Shown here one piece after another: positions 45,921 through 53,149 of a stretch of 64,000 nucleotides of DNA (position 1 is its first letter; each line of letters begins with the position of its first letter). Position numbers and translations under genes: made by a program. The notes below the pieces were generated by a model, which was not told the DNA's origin, searched no databases, and saw only the letters and a program-made list of their open reading frames with translations. Location of the stretch: contig NZ_CP075339.1 in assembly GCF_024399335.1 (NCBI RefSeq), positions 2,232,001-2,296,000 on the forward strand, written 5' to 3'. The DNA is from Leucobacter aridicollis. Its GTDB lineage: Bacteria; Actinomycetota; Actinomycetes; Actinomycetales; Microbacteriaceae.

Positions 45921-45994
45921 TTCTCTTCTGTCACAAACTGAGAGGCGCACCCACATTGTCATACAGCCGCACGAAGGACGAAGAGGCGCCTCGA

Positions 45995-46900
45995 ATGACT
46001 GTGCCCGCTCGAAAATGGCGTGCCTCAGCATCATTGATCCTCACGGTTCTCGTGGCTGTTGCTGGCGTCACTACTCTCACCTATTCCACTGCGGCGAGCT
46101 GGGTTTCCGCGATTAACCAGAGCCAGGTCGTTAATCGATACGAAACATCAGTCAACCATGCTGAACCGTCAGCCTCAGAGCAACTCAGAGCAGCGCATAT
46201 TTACAATTCGGCGCTCTCATCCGGTGCACTTCTCGAGGCGAATTCGACGGTGCCGCAGGGGAACGGCGAGTACGCGGACACCTCTTTTGACTACCGCAGC
46301 ATGCTCGCTACCTCGACTGGAGTGATGGCACGACTTCAAATTCCCAAGATCGATGTAGACCTTCCCGTTTACCACGGCACCAGCGAAGAAACACTTGAGA
46401 TCGGGGTGGGGCATCTCAAAGGCACCTCGCTACCGGTTGGAGGTGAGAGTACTCACAGCGTGCTCACCGCACACCGAGGCCTCCCCTCCGCCACTCTCTT
46501 CACGAACCTGGATCAGGTGAAAGTGGGTGACACATTCACCATCACGACGTTCGGGGAAGTTCTGAACTACCGCGTCGTCTCCAGACAGGTTGTCGCGCCC
46601 GAGGACACCGAGACATTGCGGCAGATTGAGGGTGAAGACCTGGTCACGCTCGTCACCTGCACACCACTTGGCGTGAACAGCCATCGAATTCTCGTGACCG
46701 GAGAGCGTATCAACCCCACCCCGCCAGAAGCGATTGAGGAGGCTAGGTCGTCCGCGAGAGAGCCGGGATTCCCCTGGTGGGCGGTCGCCTACATCAGCGC
46801 TCTCGCCGTAATCGGCTGGTATGCTTGGTGGGCTGGAAAACCACCTCGCCGACTACCACAGCATGCCAGCACGGAGTGCAGTTCCAACGCGCAACAATAG
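45995..46900 (+). CDS. srtC: Class C (pilin-polymerising) sortase
   Basis: A 301-residue transpeptidase with an N-terminal membrane helix (SLILTVLVAVAGVTTLTYST) and a second one near the C-terminus (AVAYISALAVIGWYAWWAG), the two-helix form of class C sortases. Catalytic residues are His160 in VLTAHRGLP, Cys222 in TLVTCTPLG and Arg231 in NSHRILVTGER. It joins pilin Lys residues to the LPLTG-type signals of the tip and shaft proteins. The ATG at 45995 has AAGAGG upstream; a TTG 13 codons earlier is less likely. Confidence 0.95.
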   Translation: MTVPARKWRASASLILTVLVAVAGVTTLTYSTAASWVSAINQSQVVNRYETSVNHAEPSASEQLRAAHIYNSALSSGALLEANSTVPQGNGEYADTSFDYRSMLATSTGVMARLQIPKIDVDLPVYHGTSEETLEIGVGHLKGTSLPVGGESTHSVLTAHRGLPSATLFTNLDQVKVGDTFTITTFGEVLNYRVVSRQVVAPEDTETLRQIEGEDLVTLVTCTPLGVNSHRILVTGERINPTPPEAIEEARSSAREPGFPWWAVAYISALAVIGWYAWWAGKPPRRLPQHASTECSSNAQQ

Positions 46901-47081: not shown

Positions 47082-49670
47082 ATGGATATTCAGCACGGCG
47101 ACACGCTTGCCCTCGCGGCAGAGACGGTTCGAGCCGGCGGTCGCGTGGAAGTAGTCGGCAGTCATGGTAGTGGCAAGAGTACTTTTCTGAAGAATCTGAA
47201 CGATATCCTGCGTGACGGCGGGTGGAGTACTCTTTTTATTCGTGGGATCGCCTCTCTCAAGCAGTTTCCGCTCGCAGCCCTCAACTTTCCAGGGGTGTTA
47301 GATGCTGGGGATGAGGTCCGTGGTATCGCCTCAATTCACCAGGTAACTTTTGCCCTGCAAGCGAAAGTATCTGGCCCTAACTCGGTGATCTTTATTGACG
47401 ACTGGAATGAACTTGATGAGGCTTCATGGGGAATCATCGATTCCGTCCATCGTGCGCTTTCGGTACCAGTCGTGTTCTCCCACTTGCGGGGTGCTCGGGC
47501 GAGCAGTATTTCGGATGAATCTTACCTCTCACGAGTGCCCACGGGATACGTCGTGGAAATGCGGTCGTTGCGAATTGATGAGCTAGGAGCAGTACTCAAA
47601 ACGCACCTGAATTCACCGATTGAGAGAGGTGCACTAAGTCGTGTCTATGCGATGACAGGCGGGCACATAGGTTTAGCACTTGCCTTAGTGAAGGCAGCAC
47701 GGCGTGAGAACCAGTTGGTTCAAGACTCTTACGGAGTATGGACAAGCACGGACGACCTGTGGAGCTCTGGTCTCACGTCAATGCTCGAGACTTACGTCAG
47801 CGACCTCCCCACCCATGTCCGAGATTCCCTGGAAGTTCTTGCCTCCGTGGGGACAGTTGACCTGGACACTGCACGGAAGCTTGTTGAGGTTGAGGTACTC
47901 GAACTGCTGGAGGAGCGTGGACTCACAACAATCCTCTCGGGTTCAGTGCATGACTGGGTGATGGTTATTCCCCCTCTCTTAGTCGAATATTTTCGGCGCG
48001 CACCCGCCTCTACCCGGAAGGATCGCCTCAATAGGCACATCCTTGAGCGAATCGGTGAGGTGGAACCCGCCGCAGTCGTCCTAGCAGGGAATTCTCCCCT
48101 GGCTCCAATAGTCGATGGCAGAGAGGCATTGTTTGCTGCCTTGGCTCGGGAACAGGTACGAACGCGGATCACAGTTGCGTCGGCAGATTGGGTGGTATCA
48201 CAGACACCACGAAATGCGGTGGGCTACATCACCGCGCTCATGCAGTCACCTCAGGCAGACAGTGAAGTACTTGTTGAGCAGGTTTTCCGTGACACGGATT
48301 TCTCTACCGGTGAAATCGAAAGTCATGCAGAGCTCATCGTTCTTCACGCCAACTGGCTTGCGCATGTTCAGGGGAAGGTCGATGACGCGCTGGAACTGCT
48401 TCGCACCGAGCGGAACTCTTTTGGTGACTTCGGGCGGCTACTTGATGCGGCTGAAGTCACTATTCTCACCAACCTAGTCAGGGCCCCCAGCGATTCCTTG
48501 AAGAAGCTCAAGGTAACCCACGACCTCCCAGTAAAAGTGCAACTCGCCCTTCTAGAAGCGCAAATGTTGATCTTCGTGACATCGTGCCGGTTTAATGAAG
48601 CCCACCAAGCGTTCGAGCGCATCCGTGTATTAGACCCTCTGCAAGAGCAGATCAAACCACGAGTTCTTTACGGATTTATGTTACTCGGGGAGGGGCGCCA
48701 TGCTGAAGCGCTGCACCTCCTTACTCATTGGTTAGAGGAAGCGAGGAAACAGGTCGATATCCAGGGCGTTCGCTCTCTCGCGTGCGCGCTTGCGTTGTGC
48801 CACAGCCAGTCAGGAGACCATTTTGCCCTTGACCGCTTAGCTGAAGTTGTCGCTGCGGTTGGAGGCCACACCTCGTTCCCTTCGAATCCACAGGTGGCCA
48901 CGGTCTCCGTGACCACTAGTGTGGTCGCCGCCCGTCGCGGAGACACACTCCTCACTGAACGGTTTGTACGTGAGGCGCAGCGACAGGGTATTGCTGATGG
49001 GCCGCTGCCGGCACAGTCGCTTGCCTGGCCAATTGCGCAACTGATGATCCTGCAAGGAGAACTAGAACACGCTGCAGAAGAGCTCTGGAGATCAGGTGAG
49101 AAGTTATGGGCTCGGGAAGCGCGCTATGCAGGGATGCTGGAAATGTTCGTTTCGATCGAGATTCACCCCAATGCAGAACGACTCGACAAAGTGAATCAGC
49201 TCCTGAAGCTCGTTCCCGAAAATGTCTCCCTGCAAGCCCAGGGAGTTTACGTGACGGCACTCGTGAAGAAGGACCCGGAAAGCATGTTGAGGGGTGCCGA
49301 AGCGCTAGTGGACACGGGGCGCTTTGGTTTAGCTGCGTCAGCCTATGCCATGGCCGAAGCATGGTTTGAGAACGCGGGAAATGCTGCACGCGCTACGGAT
49401 GCGCATGAAGCCGGGAACCGGGCGCGATCGCGGATCGGTAGTTCTGCACTTGACGTTTCCCGGTTTAGTGCATTGCCTGCAGTTCTTTCCCGCCGAGAAG
49501 AGCAGGTCGCGAGGCTGGTTGCTTACGGTCTCACCAACCGTGAGATTGCAACGGAACTCTACCTGAGCGCTCGGACCGTCGAGGGGCACGTGAGACGAAT
49601 CTTTCGGAAGCTGAAGCTCAAAAACCGACGCGCTCTGGAGGAATACTTCACTGACCAGTCTGGAATTTGA
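47082..49670 (+). CDS. Large LuxR-type ATPase regulator (LAL/MalT-like)
   Basis: An 862-residue regulator. The N-terminal P-loop is VEVVGSHGSGKSTFLKNLND (about 22-41) with a Walker B-like SVIFIDDWNELDEASWG; a long helical repeat region follows, and the C-terminal LuxR helix-turn-helix is LSRREEQVARLVAYGLTNRE, then IATELYLSARTVEGHVRRIF. It follows the sortase gene on the same strand after 180 bases and may control pilus expression, a position-based inference. Its base usage appears less GC-rich than the chromosomal part of the window. Confidence 0.88.
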   Translation: MDIQHGDTLALAAETVRAGGRVEVVGSHGSGKSTFLKNLNDILRDGGWSTLFIRGIASLKQFPLAALNFPGVLDAGDEVRGIASIHQVTFALQAKVSGPNSVIFIDDWNELDEASWGIIDSVHRALSVPVVFSHLRGARASSISDESYLSRVPTGYVVEMRSLRIDELGAVLKTHLNSPIERGALSRVYAMTGGHIGLALALVKAARRENQLVQDSYGVWTSTDDLWSSGLTSMLETYVSDLPTHVRDSLEVLASVGTVDLDTARKLVEVEVLELLEERGLTTILSGSVHDWVMVIPPLLVEYFRRAPASTRKDRLNRHILERIGEVEPAAVVLAGNSPLAPIVDGREALFAALAREQVRTRITVASADWVVSQTPRNAVGYITALMQSPQADSEVLVEQVFRDTDFSTGEIESHAELIVLHANWLAHVQGKVDDALELLRTERNSFGDFGRLLDAAEVTILTNLVRAPSDSLKKLKVTHDLPVKVQLALLEAQMLIFVTSCRFNEAHQAFERIRVLDPLQEQIKPRVLYGFMLLGEGRHAEALHLLTHWLEEARKQVDIQGVRSLACALALCHSQSGDHFALDRLAEVVAAVGGHTSFPSNPQVATVSVTTSVVAARRGDTLLTERFVREAQRQGIADGPLPAQSLAWPIAQLMILQGELEHAAEELWRSGEKLWAREARYAGMLEMFVSIEIHPNAERLDKVNQLLKLVPENVSLQAQGVYVTALVKKDPESMLRGAEALVDTGRFGLAASAYAMAEAWFENAGNAARATDAHEAGNRARSRIGSSALDVSRFSALPAVLSRREEQVARLVAYGLTNREIATELYLSARTVEGHVRRIFRKLKLKNRRALEEYFTDQSGI

Positions 49671-49754: not shown

Positions 49755-50040
49755 GCCCCGGGTTTCGTGGAGGCTCGGTTATCTGGAACCGGCTCCGATG
49801 GGAACCTGTTCTCCAACGTAGCTGACGGGCTCGTGGGATGCCCAGTGGGCGGCCTCGAACTCGGCGGGTGGGATGTGTCCGATCTCGCCGTGCAGGCGCC
49901 GGTGGTTGTACCAGTCGACGTATTCGGCGACTGCGATCTCGACGTCGCGGATCGACGCCCACCCGCCCTTGGGGCGCATCATCGGGTTGCGGATACACTC
50001 GGCCTTGAACAACGAGTTCAGCGCCTCGGCCATCGCGTTG
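49755..50040 (-). pseudogene. C-terminal fragment of an IS3-family transposase (IS3 copy A)
   Basis: The minus-strand frame AMAEALNSLFKAECIRNPMM, then DVEIAVAEYVDWYNHRRLHG and PPAEFEAAHWA is the end of an IS3-family integrase core, with the catalytic Glu in MAEALNSLFKAE. Its preceding codons are at 51390-51905, separated by an IS110 element. The outer end near 49755 (CGGGTTTCGTGGAGGCTC) is probably the terminal repeat of this copy. Confidence 0.85.
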
Positions 50041-50055
50041 ATGCTCCTATATTTG

Positions 50056-51126
50056 TCAACTCACAATCTCACCTGTCCTCGGATTGACTTTGACGAGGTG
50101 GTAGAGCTCGCGAATCACATAGCGTTTCAAGCATCGGATGATGTCTCGTTTGCTTTTCCCCTCGGCGGTTCTGCGGGCGACGTAGTCGATGGTGGGCTGG
50201 TGGAATCTCATCCGCACGATCACGGTCCGATAGATCGCCGCGTTGAGTTGCCGGTGCCCGCCATGGTTGATGCGATGCTTCCCGCTGGTCATGCCTGATC
50301 CGGTGGGGACCGGGCTGATACCCGCGAGTTTCGCGAACGCGGCCTCGGACTTGATGCGCTCGGGGTTGTCTCCTGCGACGATGAGGATTTCGGCTGCAGT
50401 ATCCACACCAATACCAAACTCGTCCAGCAGATGTGGTGCGCGTCCGAGAACGAGCTCCTCGATCATGCTGGTGAGTTCCTTGATCTCCTCGTCGAGCAAG
50501 AGCCAACGCTTCGCAAGCGACCGCAGCGTATGCCGGTTCGCATCCTCTGGGGAGTCGAGGCCGCGCGGCCGGAATGCTGCGCAGTAACGCGCGAGAGTGC
50601 GTTGCGTCTTCCGCGCGGTCTCGGCACGGAGCTGTTCTTGCGCGTGCACGAGCAGGGCTTTGAGCGTCACCATCGTCGCGGCTTTCTGCTTCACCGCAGT
50701 GTCATGGGCAACTTTGAGCTGCCGGATCATCTCGACCGCGCCATCCATTGTTTTCGGGGTCGCGGTCGCGAACCCCGCAAGTACCGCTCGCGCGGCGTTC
50801 TCCGCATCGAGAGTGTCGGACTTACCGTTGAGCCGGCGGAGTCTGCGGTCAGGGCGTGAGACCTCGACGACCTTGTACCCGTGCCGCCGCAGGAACGAGG
50901 TGAGGCCTGCCCCGTAGGAGCCGGTTCCCTCGATCCCGAAAGAGATGATCTTTCCGAACCCTTGAGCCCAGGCGAGCAGCTGCCTATACCCGGCGGTGTC
51001 GGTTGCGATCGTGAGGGTCGCGAGTACCCCGTCGATGGTGTCCATCACTGCTGCGACGTGAATGTGTTTATGCGTGTCGACGCCGATCACGATATGCCCT
51101 GAACGGGTGGGTTCTGTCTGGGTCAT
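50056..51126 (-). CDS. IS110-family transposase (RuvC-like plus Tnp domain)
   Basis: A 356-residue recombinase. The RuvC-like DEDD domain starts with VIGVDTHKHIHVAAV (first Asp) and has IISFGIEGTGSYGAGL (Glu) and NGKSDTLDAENAARAVLAG (Asp pair). A coiled-coil region follows, then the Tnp domain AGISPVPTGSGMTSGKHRIN with the catalytic Ser in the PTGSG region and NHGGHRQLNAAIYR. It appears full length and intact, so the element could still be active. It works with the RNA from its own leader. Confidence 0.95.
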   Translation of the reverse strand: MTQTEPTRSGHIVIGVDTHKHIHVAAVMDTIDGVLATLTIATDTAGYRQLLAWAQGFGKIISFGIEGTGSYGAGLTSFLRRHGYKVVEVSRPDRRLRRLNGKSDTLDAENAARAVLAGFATATPKTMDGAVEMIRQLKVAHDTAVKQKAATMVTLKALLVHAQEQLRAETARKTQRTLARYCAAFRPRGLDSPEDANRHTLRSLAKRWLLLDEEIKELTSMIEELVLGRAPHLLDEFGIGVDTAAEILIVAGDNPERIKSEAAFAKLAGISPVPTGSGMTSGKHRINHGGHRQLNAAIYRTVIVRMRFHQPTIDYVARRTAEGKSKRDIIRCLKRYVIRELYHLVKVNPRTGEIVS

Positions 51127-51169
51127 AGCGGGGGTCCTCTCGGCCGGTTATCGTGGGTTTCACGCTGTC

Positions 51170-51389
51170 ACCGGCGAGGGGACAGGACTGTCACGGGGAC
51201 GCTGTTTGAGAGTAGGCTCCAGGCTCCTATTAGGTCACGCCTCGTCCGGTGGCAGCGCTTCATGCGCTGCCCGGGCGGAGGGTCGACAGATCAACGCAAA
51301 GGCACCCTGCGGGCCATTCGTAACAAGAGTCAGACCGCTCCGACCGGGACTCCCCAATCCTTGCGAGATCGGGTGCAAACAGACTGACA
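51170..51389 (-). ncRNA. Probable IS110 bridge RNA
   Basis: The leader (minus strand) folds into two looped stems. Loop 1: TTACGAAT (51316-51323) and TTGCGTTG (51292-51299) sit on the two sides of an internal loop, capped by GGCCCGCAGGGTGCC and closed by GGAG-c-GGTC-t-GAC / GTC-GACC-CTCC. TACGA equals the target bases left of the insertion and GCGTTG is the complement of CAACGC right of it. Loop 2: ATAGGAGC (51223-51230) equals the element's right end (50043-50050), and TGACAG (51188-51193) complements the left terminus CTGTCA. Between them is a perfect hairpin GGCAGCGC/GCGCTGCC (51251-51271). This is the target-loop then donor-loop order known for IS621. Pairings were read by eye. Confidence 0.75.
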
Positions 51390-51905
51390 GTCGTAGCTGT
51401 CGCCGACCGTTCCGACGGACGCGACGGCGTCGGCTTCGGCGAGGCGCTCGGTGTAGCGAATGGCTCGATACTGCACTCCGGCATCGCTGTGATGGATCAG
51501 CCCGGCGATGTCCTGCCCTGCTCTGCGGCGCTCCCAGAGGCCCATGTCGAGCGCGTCGACGGCGAGATCGGTGCGCAGCGACGTGGACACCTGCCAGCCG
51601 ACGATACGGCGAGAGAACACGTCGAGGACGAACGCGGCGTAGGTCCACCCGGCGTGGGTACGGATGTAGGTCAGGTCCGCAACCCAGAGCTGGTTCGGTG
51701 CCGTCGCGGTGAACGCGCGCTTCACGAGGTCGGCGGGCCGGTCGGTCTCCGCGCCGTCCCCGAAGGTGGTCTTGCGGGTCTTGTCGCGCCGGATGCCCTG
51801 GATGCCCGCGGCGCGCATCAGCCGCTCGACGGTGCAGCGGGCGACCTCGACGCCCTCCCGGTTCAGGGCAGCGTGGATCTTCCGGGCGCCGTAGACACCG
51901 AGGTT
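51390..51905 (-). pseudogene. Middle fragment of the IS3-family transposase (IS3 copy A)
   Basis: Continuous codons read NLGVYGARKIHAALNREGVE, then RLMRAAGIQGIRRDK, the catalytic Asp in NQLWVADLTYIRT and the second Asp in IAGLIHHSDAGVQYRAIRYT, ending GTVGDSYD at 51390 where the IS110 element begins. The upstream part (rest of orfB and orfA) is missing because IS3 copy B and foreign sequence follow at 51906. With the fragment at 49755-50040 it forms one broken transposase. Confidence 0.9.
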
Positions 51906-51971
51906 GGGTCTGCTGAGGGTTTGGTTGAGTCCAAGACTGCTTCGCTCATGAGGGTCGGAGCTGGAAGGATG

Positions 51972-52268
51972 ATGACCATGCCAATGAAGTACAGCGAGGA
52001 GTTCAAGCGTGACGCTGTCGCGCTCGTGGAGTCCGGCATCGCACAGAAAACCGTGTGCCGTGATCTTGGTATCTCGAAATCAGCACTCGGTGCGTGGGTA
52101 CAAGACGCCAGGTTCAAAACGTATGGGATGACCCCCTCGAAGGACCCTGAGGAGCAGCGCGAAATGCGAGCTGCTCTGAAACGTATTCGTGAACTCGAGA
52201 TGGAAAACGAAGTGCTCCGGCGTGCGGCAGCGTATCTCTCGCAGGCGCATATCACGCCCCCAAAATGA
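51972..52268 (+). CDS. IS3-family transposase OrfA
   Basis: A 98-residue helix-turn-helix protein (MKYSEEFKRDAVALVESGIA, KTVCRDLGISKSALGAWV) with a leucine-zipper-like end (RIRELEMENEVLRRAAAYL). Several ATGs lie close together at 51969-51984; 51972 is used here. The stop overlaps the orfB ATG as ATGA; IS3 elements usually make an OrfAB fusion by frameshifting at such overlaps. Confidence 0.9.
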   Translation: MTMPMKYSEEFKRDAVALVESGIAQKTVCRDLGISKSALGAWVQDARFKTYGMTPSKDPEEQREMRAALKRIRELEMENEVLRRAAAYLSQAHITPPK

Positions 52269-53149
52269 TTTACCCGCTCGTCCGTGAGATGGCTGCGCCA
52301 GGTGCCCGTGTCAGGGTGCCGGTCGCGGTGGCGTGCCGGGTACTGGAGTTCAGTGAGCAGGCCTACTACCGATGGCTCACATCTCCGCAGTCTGCCCGTG
52401 AGGCCGAGGAGGAGCAGTTGATCGGGGTGCTGCGTGAGCTGCACGAAGAGGATCCCGAGGGTGGCTACCGTGTGCTTGCTGATGATCTCCATGATCTCGG
52501 CTACGACATCAGCGAGCGGCGCGTGTGGCGGCTGTGCAAGGTCGCGGGTATTCAGTCGGCCATCACCAAGCGTAAGCGCCGTTACCAGCGAGCTGGAGAG
52601 CCGGTGGGTGATGATCTCGTGGAGCGCGACTTCACCGCAGATGCACTTGACGAGAAGTGGCTCACGGATATCACCGAGCATTGGACAGGAGAGGGCAAGC
52701 TCTACTTGTGCGCGATCAAGGACGTGTGCTCGAACCGGATCGTGGGGTACGCGATCGATAAGCGGATGAAGGCATCGCTTGCGGTTCGGGCGCTGGGAAA
52801 CGCGCTGCAGCAGCGTGGCTATCCGGCGGGCGTGATCGTTCACAGCGACAGGGGCAGTCAATTTCGTAGCCGGAAGTTCCAGCAGGCTTTGAAGCGGCAC
52901 CAGTTGAAGGGTTCGATGGGAAGAGTGGGCGCGTGTGGTGATAACGCTGCCATGGAGTCGTTCTTCTCGCTGTTACAGAAGAACGTGCTTGACCGGCAGT
53001 CGTGGCGCACCCGGCAAGAGTTGCGCCTCGCGATCGTGGCCTGGATCGAGGGGAAGTATCACCGGAAACGACGTCAGCGCAGGCTCGGGAAGCTGACACG
53101 GGTCGAGTTCGAGGCCATAATGATGGATGTCGTCGCTTTGGCGGCATAA
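52265..53149 (+). CDS. IS3-family transposase OrfB (DDE integrase)
   Basis: A 294-residue DDE transposase. After an HTH_21-type N-terminal region (EEDPEGGYRVLADDLHDLGY), the catalytic residues are Asp in EKWLTDITEHWTGEGKLYLC, Asp in GVIVHSDRGSQFRSRKF and Glu in CGDNAAMESFFSLLQKNVLD. The C-terminal part is typical (WIEGKYHRKRRQRRLGKLTR). The frame is complete, so this copy may be mobile. Confidence 0.93.
   Translation: MIYPLVREMAAPGARVRVPVAVACRVLEFSEQAYYRWLTSPQSAREAEEEQLIGVLRELHEEDPEGGYRVLADDLHDLGYDISERRVWRLCKVAGIQSAITKRKRRYQRAGEPVGDDLVERDFTADALDEKWLTDITEHWTGEGKLYLCAIKDVCSNRIVGYAIDKRMKASLAVRALGNALQQRGYPAGVIVHSDRGSQFRSRKFQQALKRHQLKGSMGRVGACGDNAAMESFFSLLQKNVLDRQSWRTRQELRLAIVAWIEGKYHRKRRQRRLGKLTRVEFEAIMMDVVALAA

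Follow-up and report, generated by a model that had tools for sequence, protein, structure and literature searches.

An insertion sequence (IS) of the IS110 group lies in the 64,000-nucleotide stretch of Leucobacter aridicollis DNA analyzed here (contig NZ_CP075339.1, positions 2,232,001 to 2,296,000; hereafter the window). Judged from its sequence, the leader upstream of the recombinase gene is very probably a bridge RNA programmed to enter IS3-family transposase genes. The anatomy of the element, a conserved leader structure, matches of guides to target and to element ends, co-variation of guides with flanks, and the occurrence of one clade at one site are all directly observed. A first-pass annotation had read the region as an IS110 bridge RNA, a view supported by the recombinase family and by four guide matches in two loops; it overlooked that the target, too, is a gene of a transposon.

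The element spans 1350 bp (50040..51389; coordinates are those of the window, and features lie on the (-) strand unless stated otherwise). Comparison with empty sites places its left end, which begins TGTCAG, at 51389 and its right end at 50040. It encodes a 356-residue recombinase (50056..51126), identified by Pfam, NCBIfam, and PDB alignment. Both Pfam families, PF01548 and PF02371 (DEDD RuvC-like and C-terminal Tnp domains), score above cut-off, the NCBIfam model NF033542 "IS110 family RNA-guided transposase" scores 178.3 bits (cut-off 140), and the PDB search returns IS621 (E = 1.7e-9). Asp, Glu, Asp, Asp, and the catalytic Ser of IS621 align with identical residues in the window recombinase, the alignment being judged by eye (residue names from PMC11208158). 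With 263 bp ahead of the start codon and 16 bp past the stop codon, the element has the long left end and short right end of the IS110 group. One copy was found in its own genome at the thresholds used. The pattern TAYGAYAAYGC occurs twice elsewhere in that genome, versus four times for the reversed control pattern, and both extra sites are in open stretches without an NCBIfam family match; that no further IS3 site with this pattern was seen there fits the single element copy. An Rfam search of the element gave no score near a gathering threshold, and none of 21 pattern matches in viral contigs is a relative of the element.

By profile and by residue spacing, the interrupted gene is an IS3-family transposase gene, split at D-N-A codons a short way ahead of the catalytic Glu of DD(35)E. 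The N-terminal remainder of orfB (51390..51905) ends ...HSDAG...GDSYD and matches the NCBIfam transpos_IS3 profile over positions 148–313 of 369 (188.5 bits, cut-off 160). The C-terminal remainder of the same orfB (49779..50039) starts NAMAEAL and covers profile positions 314–369 (51.4 bits, which for this fragment is under the whole-protein cut-off). DD(35)E is the spacing of IS3 transposases. In the interrupted gene, the HSD Asp and the AMAE Glu are separated by 35 residues, which places the insertion just ahead of the catalytic Glu.

Of 97 relatives found, 79 were kept, and 63 of these have a recognizable right end; individual loci carry L numbers. Twelve IS3 loci were also fetched (L109–L120), eight of which contain a contiguous empty site, GAY-AAYGC. 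The remaining four are the window's own copy (L109), a site reading GAC-AACACG (L111), a locus with the element (L114), and one with a remnant resembling a right end (L118). Because the empty motif is uninterrupted, the left Y comes from the target and the right C from the element. The window site is thus GCTACGAC/AACGC (slashes mark insertion points), one base later than the first-pass GCTACGA/CAACGC. Among left flanks, 41 of 51 end in GAY (33 GAC, 8 GAT; L055 and L075, counted among the 41, sit at other sites), and the residues preceding the cut in these 41 are SYD (18), AYD (7), CYD (3), SFD (3), AGD (2), and others. The last three element bases are NTC in all 63 right ends, in a search that demanded neither the T nor the C. 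Target duplication is absent, as seen both from the empty sites and from the IS3 profile, which ends at 313 and resumes at 314 across the element. The exact joined empty site was found in none of 60 related genomes; a looser IS3 search gave the empty sites described here. In L118, a short AAGCATC stands ahead of AATGC in the IS3 gene and resembles the right-end scar of a lost element.

The leader carries guides in two loops. In the target loop, the left target guide TGTTACGAA (51317..51325) contains TACGA and would pair with the bottom strand of AGCTACGAC; its nine positions give six Watson–Crick pairs, one wobble, and two mismatches. The right target guide GCGTTG (51292..51297), the complement of CAACGC, gives five contiguous pairs, with its last G facing the core C. 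In the donor loop, the left donor guide ATAGGAGC (51223..51230) is identical to the right end of the element (copy at 50043..50050), and the right donor guide TGACAG (51188..51193) complements CTGTCA at the left junction. The first-pass annotation had named TACGA and GCGTTG on the two sides of the target loop, and the right-end and left-end matches of the second loop, and all of these stand. Putative handshake bases are AT (51290..51291) in the target loop, assigned by the handshake scheme of PMC11208158, and TC (51186..51187) in the donor loop.

The leader is ordered as a 5′ stem-loop (51352..51373, from the fold), the target loop, and the donor loop; the target-then-donor order, as in IS621, had been noted before and holds. 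Folding of 51127–51394 was better than that of 200 of 200 shuffled sequences (z = -3.59). A covariance model, R1, was built from the leaders of 27 relatives (the near-identical L003 among them) and matches the window at 51168..51343 with 157.8 bits (E = 3.9e-34). Across 98 chosen sources R1 gave 96 matches, training rows included; matches outside training include L142 (152.8 bits), L123 (118.1), L137 (104.4), and L140 (96.0). Folding and a covariance search had been proposed as checks of the first-pass annotation, and both support a conserved leader structure. Within the 27 rows, from which the structure was derived and on which it was also scored, 98.1% of helix cells are paired (94.0% in shuffled alignments) and the helix covariation score is 0.196 (0.115 shuffled), neither value being reached in 500 shuffles; both sides have changed at six of 22 helix pairs in these rows. 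L020, L021, L052, and L045 each have two R1 matches, in most cases one of them partial or weak; a second or divided leader may lie near a single recombinase gene, or a second element may be present.

As far as the sequences tell, this is one IS110 lineage fixed on the Glu-proximal codons of IS3 genes. Fifty-six of the 63 right ends continue AA[CT][GT]C, which translates in frame to D-N-A at 55 and to D-N-S at one, and in 53 of the 56 a Glu follows four residues past the Asn. The recombinases at these IS3 sites are 54.6–99.7% identical to the window protein. The motif is present on both junctions at 36 loci, in 35 distinct contexts. Of 10 chosen loci whose left flanks were compared with the NF033516 IS3 profile, eight matched, seven of them ending at 313, like the window, and one at 311. 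Eight of 60 listed plasmid matches were fetched: copies from Micrococcus, Microbacterium, Rhodococcus, Sphingobium, Microvirga, and Kozakia have the motif on both sides, that of Lichenicola on the left only, and that of Roseomonas on the right only. When 93 distinct proteins were placed in a tree, all 51 IS3-site rows fell in one 57-row clade (100/100 support) that spans Actinomycetota and Pseudomonadota; L137 was labeled IS3-site by its left side only, and L075 is absent from the tree. The clade holds six other rows: L055 and L123, with changed guides; L028, L031, and L044, whose sites are unassigned or rearranged; and L138, whose right flank AACGCGCCCATG was missed by the IS3-site label.

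The first-pass annotation had considered that copies with the same leader at unrelated sites would speak against it; none was found among the resolved loci, 56 of 63 right ends lying at IS3 codons. It had also expected guides of other copies to match their targets. Seven right ends are away from IS3 codons (L028, L031, L044, L055, L073, L075, and L079), and for the four of these that were resolved this holds in part: guides have changed with sites in L055 and L075 (3/6 on the right in L075), and in L028 and L044 the match is confined to the left side.

Guides and flanks vary together. Regular-expression extraction of guides (65 and 77 of 131 loci, the second set with many wrong loops) was replaced by extraction based on R1, from which 78 of 96 matches gave guides and 69 of these 78 a left flank, yielding 59 distinct guide/left-flank pairs. 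To find left ends, only the complement of the right donor guide was used, and the left flank was thereby chosen independently of the left target guide. Mean identity over the 59 pairs is 6.63/9 (7.47 with wobble), versus 4.87 when permuted (maximum 5.49 in 10,000 permutations, which, as for the other classes, ignore relatedness). For 11 pairs at clearly other sites it is 8.27/9 versus 4.18 (maximum 6.73 in 10,000). A scripted 18-pair "non-IS3" class (7.33 versus 4.06) was rejected and recounted as these 11, having held seven IS3-site or doubtful pairs (L039, L044, L054, L056, L066, L081, and L137). The left guide matches its flank 9/9 in L075, L076, L084, L087, L090/L091, L128, L129 (two candidate left ends, 9 or 8 of 9), L134, and, at an IS3 site, L140 (TCGTTCGAT).

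Right guides also track their sites. GCGTT occurs with AACGC, and with AATGC through a G:T pair, and GCATT with AATGC in L053, L140, and L144. Two loci of one genome differ in step, L123 having GGATT with AATCC and L132 GCGTT with AATGC. L123 and L132, L140, and the plasmid locus L137 (TGGGAT with TGGGAT), which matches on the left side only, were counted as natural reprogramming inside the clade. Misfits on the right side are L044, L128, and L137 (1–2/6), L075 (3/6), and L084, L087, and L090 (4/6). The Microbacteriaceae loci L087, L090, and L091 are more distant IS110 elements in which left guide CTACTCGAC equals the flank (9/9) and the flanks look like repeated genomic sequence.

Several observations weigh against a programmed bridge RNA or narrow its support. 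No guides were obtained from 18 of the 96 R1 matches, and nine of the other 78 lack a left end. Left identity is 4/9 in L014, L027, L054, L066, L082, and L142, and 5/9 at the changed site of L123. The 41 IS3-site pairs co-vary modestly (6.32 versus 5.56 permuted, maximum 6.15), which is attributed to their all sharing one target. The left flanks of L009 and L071 (36 residues) have no IS3 profile match, and the closest relative, L003, is the window's own locus (99.885% over 6068 bp) and not independent. In most members, one predicted helix pairs three bases of the left target guide with three of the right; the first-pass annotation had named guide bases buried in stems as a sign against its reading, and this applies to those three bases per target guide, while the pairs fail in some rows. 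The helix has the lowest paired share (92.6% of cells), with one pair failing in four of 27 rows and another in two, and is read on these grounds as a by-product of the target sequence.

It is extremely unlikely that the recombinase itself reads the IS3 motif and that the leader matches are a by-product of captured or conserved sequence. Site and protein clade do coincide, and within the IS3-site members protein and guide are inseparable. However, L123 and L132 differ in both right guide and site within one genome, and L055, L075, L084, L128, L134, and L090 match their own left flanks at 8–9/9 at other sites; a guided mechanism has moreover been demonstrated for IS621 and ISEc21 (PMC11208160, PMC11187229). 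A leader or attenuator for recombinase expression, matching by chance, would suit a segment directly upstream of the recombinase start, but the matches at four separate places in two loops, the covarying helices, and the guide co-variation leave this explanation next to negligible.

The pattern of sites could also reflect few old insertions and many rides, IS3 copies with the element inside having spread by IS3 transposition. L005 and L006 illustrate such a course, holding one 2705-bp IS3::IS110 unit with IS3 ends at two places. Against it stand the 35 distinct contexts among 36 two-sided loci and the varied residues before the cut, by which many insertions look separate. Riding may add copies, but as the general explanation it is very improbable, and a bridge RNA programmed for IS3 genes remains the preferred reading.

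Under the programmed bridge RNA, the target guides would recognize the codons for Tyr-Asp on the left and for Asn-Ala on the right, shortly before the catalytic Glu, and direct the element into IS3-family transposase genes; since the encoded residues are nearly invariant, one short guide would fit many IS3 elements. The donor loop would recognize an excised circle in which the right end is joined to the left end (predicted junction AGGAGCATC/TGTCAG). Insertion would be in the sense orientation, would on balance neither add nor remove target bases, and would break the IS3 transposase. By the IS621 scheme, the top strand would be cut after position 9. Positions 7–9 of the window are G-A-C in the target and A-T-C in the donor, so that only position 9 is common. 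Donors across relatives are NTC; at position 8, donors have T and almost every target has A, and no core base is shared when position 9 of the target is T. After exchange, the target-loop AT would fit donor T8 and A7, and the donor-loop TC would fit target A8 and G7. L054 and L081 have GTC in place of GAC at the left junction, as would follow if resolution of a two-base heteroduplex sometimes favors the donor. The donor loop has TC with G7 targets and TT with A7 in L076 and L134 (exceptions: TT with G7 in L089 and L103, TG in L090/L091), a hint that its handshake base may track target position 7. A corresponding rule, in which target-loop position 7 follows the donor end, was dropped, AC occurring with A7.

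The right end contains TTGACA (50054..50059), which resembles a −35 box and, in the circular form, would face the leader. Among relatives, TTGAC is kept in 60 of 63 right ends, with identical spacing in 52, so that a circle would put such a box upstream of the leader; the −10 box at the circle junction, CAGTCT, is weak. Transcription of the RNA, circle formation, the top-strand cut after position 9, the handshake, present activity, and any benefit from a dispensable, mobile target are predictions from the sequence.

Entry of IS110 elements into IS3 genes is already known from ISEc21 of E. coli (PMC11187229), whose target was traced to the codon region of the second Asp in IS3 transposases (Siddiquee et al., PMC11187229). 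ISEc21 shares with the window element an upstream guide RNA and a target in catalytic codons of IS3-family transposases (PMC11187229). Read by eye in the single ISEc21 copy examined, L145, left guide CACAGCGAT and the left flank agree at 9/9 bases, and CAGGGCAG is complementary to the right guide over 8/8; R1 matches the leader of this copy with 42.4 bits. As in the window lineage, target (A-T) and donor (T-C) have no common core dinucleotide. In contrast, the ISEc21 recombinase (43% identical) falls outside the 57-row clade, and its site is HSD/QGSH at the second Asp, whereas the window clade is found at YD/NA before the Glu. Two IS110 branches thus insert at distinct catalytic regions within a single prey family. 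IS621 shares a related recombinase, an RNA in the left end, the target-then-donor loop order, the guide strands, and the handshake idea (PMC11208160, PMC11208158). It differs in its target and in having a CT core in both DNAs, where the window has A-C in the target and T-C in the donor (PMC11208160, PMC11208158). The IS1111 group (e.g., IS4321) also has a guide RNA, but downstream of the gene, and longer subterminal inverted repeats (PMC11208160, PMC11187229). Within the literature searched, the Glu-proximal lineage, its breadth, and its reprogrammed relatives, including a few at IS6-like ends, are new. No description of the DNAxxE site was found in that literature; the target logos of PMC11187229 (>300 IS), or ISAar29 (PMC11208160), could hold a clade member.

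Prey other than IS3 form a small, unsystematic set. L075 lies beside an IS6-type transposase ORF (open reading frame; Pfam DDE_Tnp_IS240), and L134 beside an IS6-type ORF with no Pfam match and an NCBIfam transpos_IS6 score of 97.1 bits, under the whole-protein cut-off of 125. The short joined flanks of L075 and L134 read, in reverse complement, GGCACTGTCAACTT and GGCACTGTTGCATC, which we take to resemble IS6-family ends. L055 lies between an IS66-like and an IS6-like ORF; it is inside the 57-row clade, and L134 outside. IS4321-type elements target ends of other transposons. On a wider reading, about which we are evenly divided, a branch of IS110 would consist of RNA-guided parasites of other ISs, with guides locked on IS3 catalytic codons (two residues, two branches) or on IS6-like terminal repeats, and would switch prey by changing guides. 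If so, conserved protein motifs would act as RNA-readable landing sites, much as conserved genes do for homing elements.

Across the relatives, a large set of natural cases allows guide, target, and enzyme to be compared directly, with one conserved target in two phyla and scattered reprogrammed members, such as L123/L132 of one genome, as its controls. They suggest an ecological role for bridge RNAs, a parasitism of one transposon on another by which IS3 elements are disabled. A scheme without a common core dinucleotide, in which the handshake bases of the window element fit both non-cognate strands, may guide the choice of new bridge recombinases.

Nested arrangements were also seen. The units of L005 and L006, in one Leucobacter genome, are 99.8% identical and have IS3 ends TGAAGCGCTCTGGGTTTG; that of L006 is flanked by ATG on both sides, and the nested pair may move together on the IS3 ends. 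In L007 (up to ~2293), the IS3 end sequence TGAAGCGCTCTGGGTTTG lies inside the IS110 leader and the left end is cut off; here a prey IS3 element seems to have entered the RNA region of its predator. In the window, a second IS3-family element (~51906–53149 (+)) adjoins the N-terminal side of the interrupted IS3 gene and appears to truncate it; its orfB (52265–53149) scores 282.8 bits with NCBIfam, and its own D-N-A motif, GDNAAMES, is intact. Beside the IS cluster, on the (+) strand, are a candidate sortase-like ORF (45956–46900) and a candidate large LuxR-type regulator-like ORF (47082–49670), both named by inspection.
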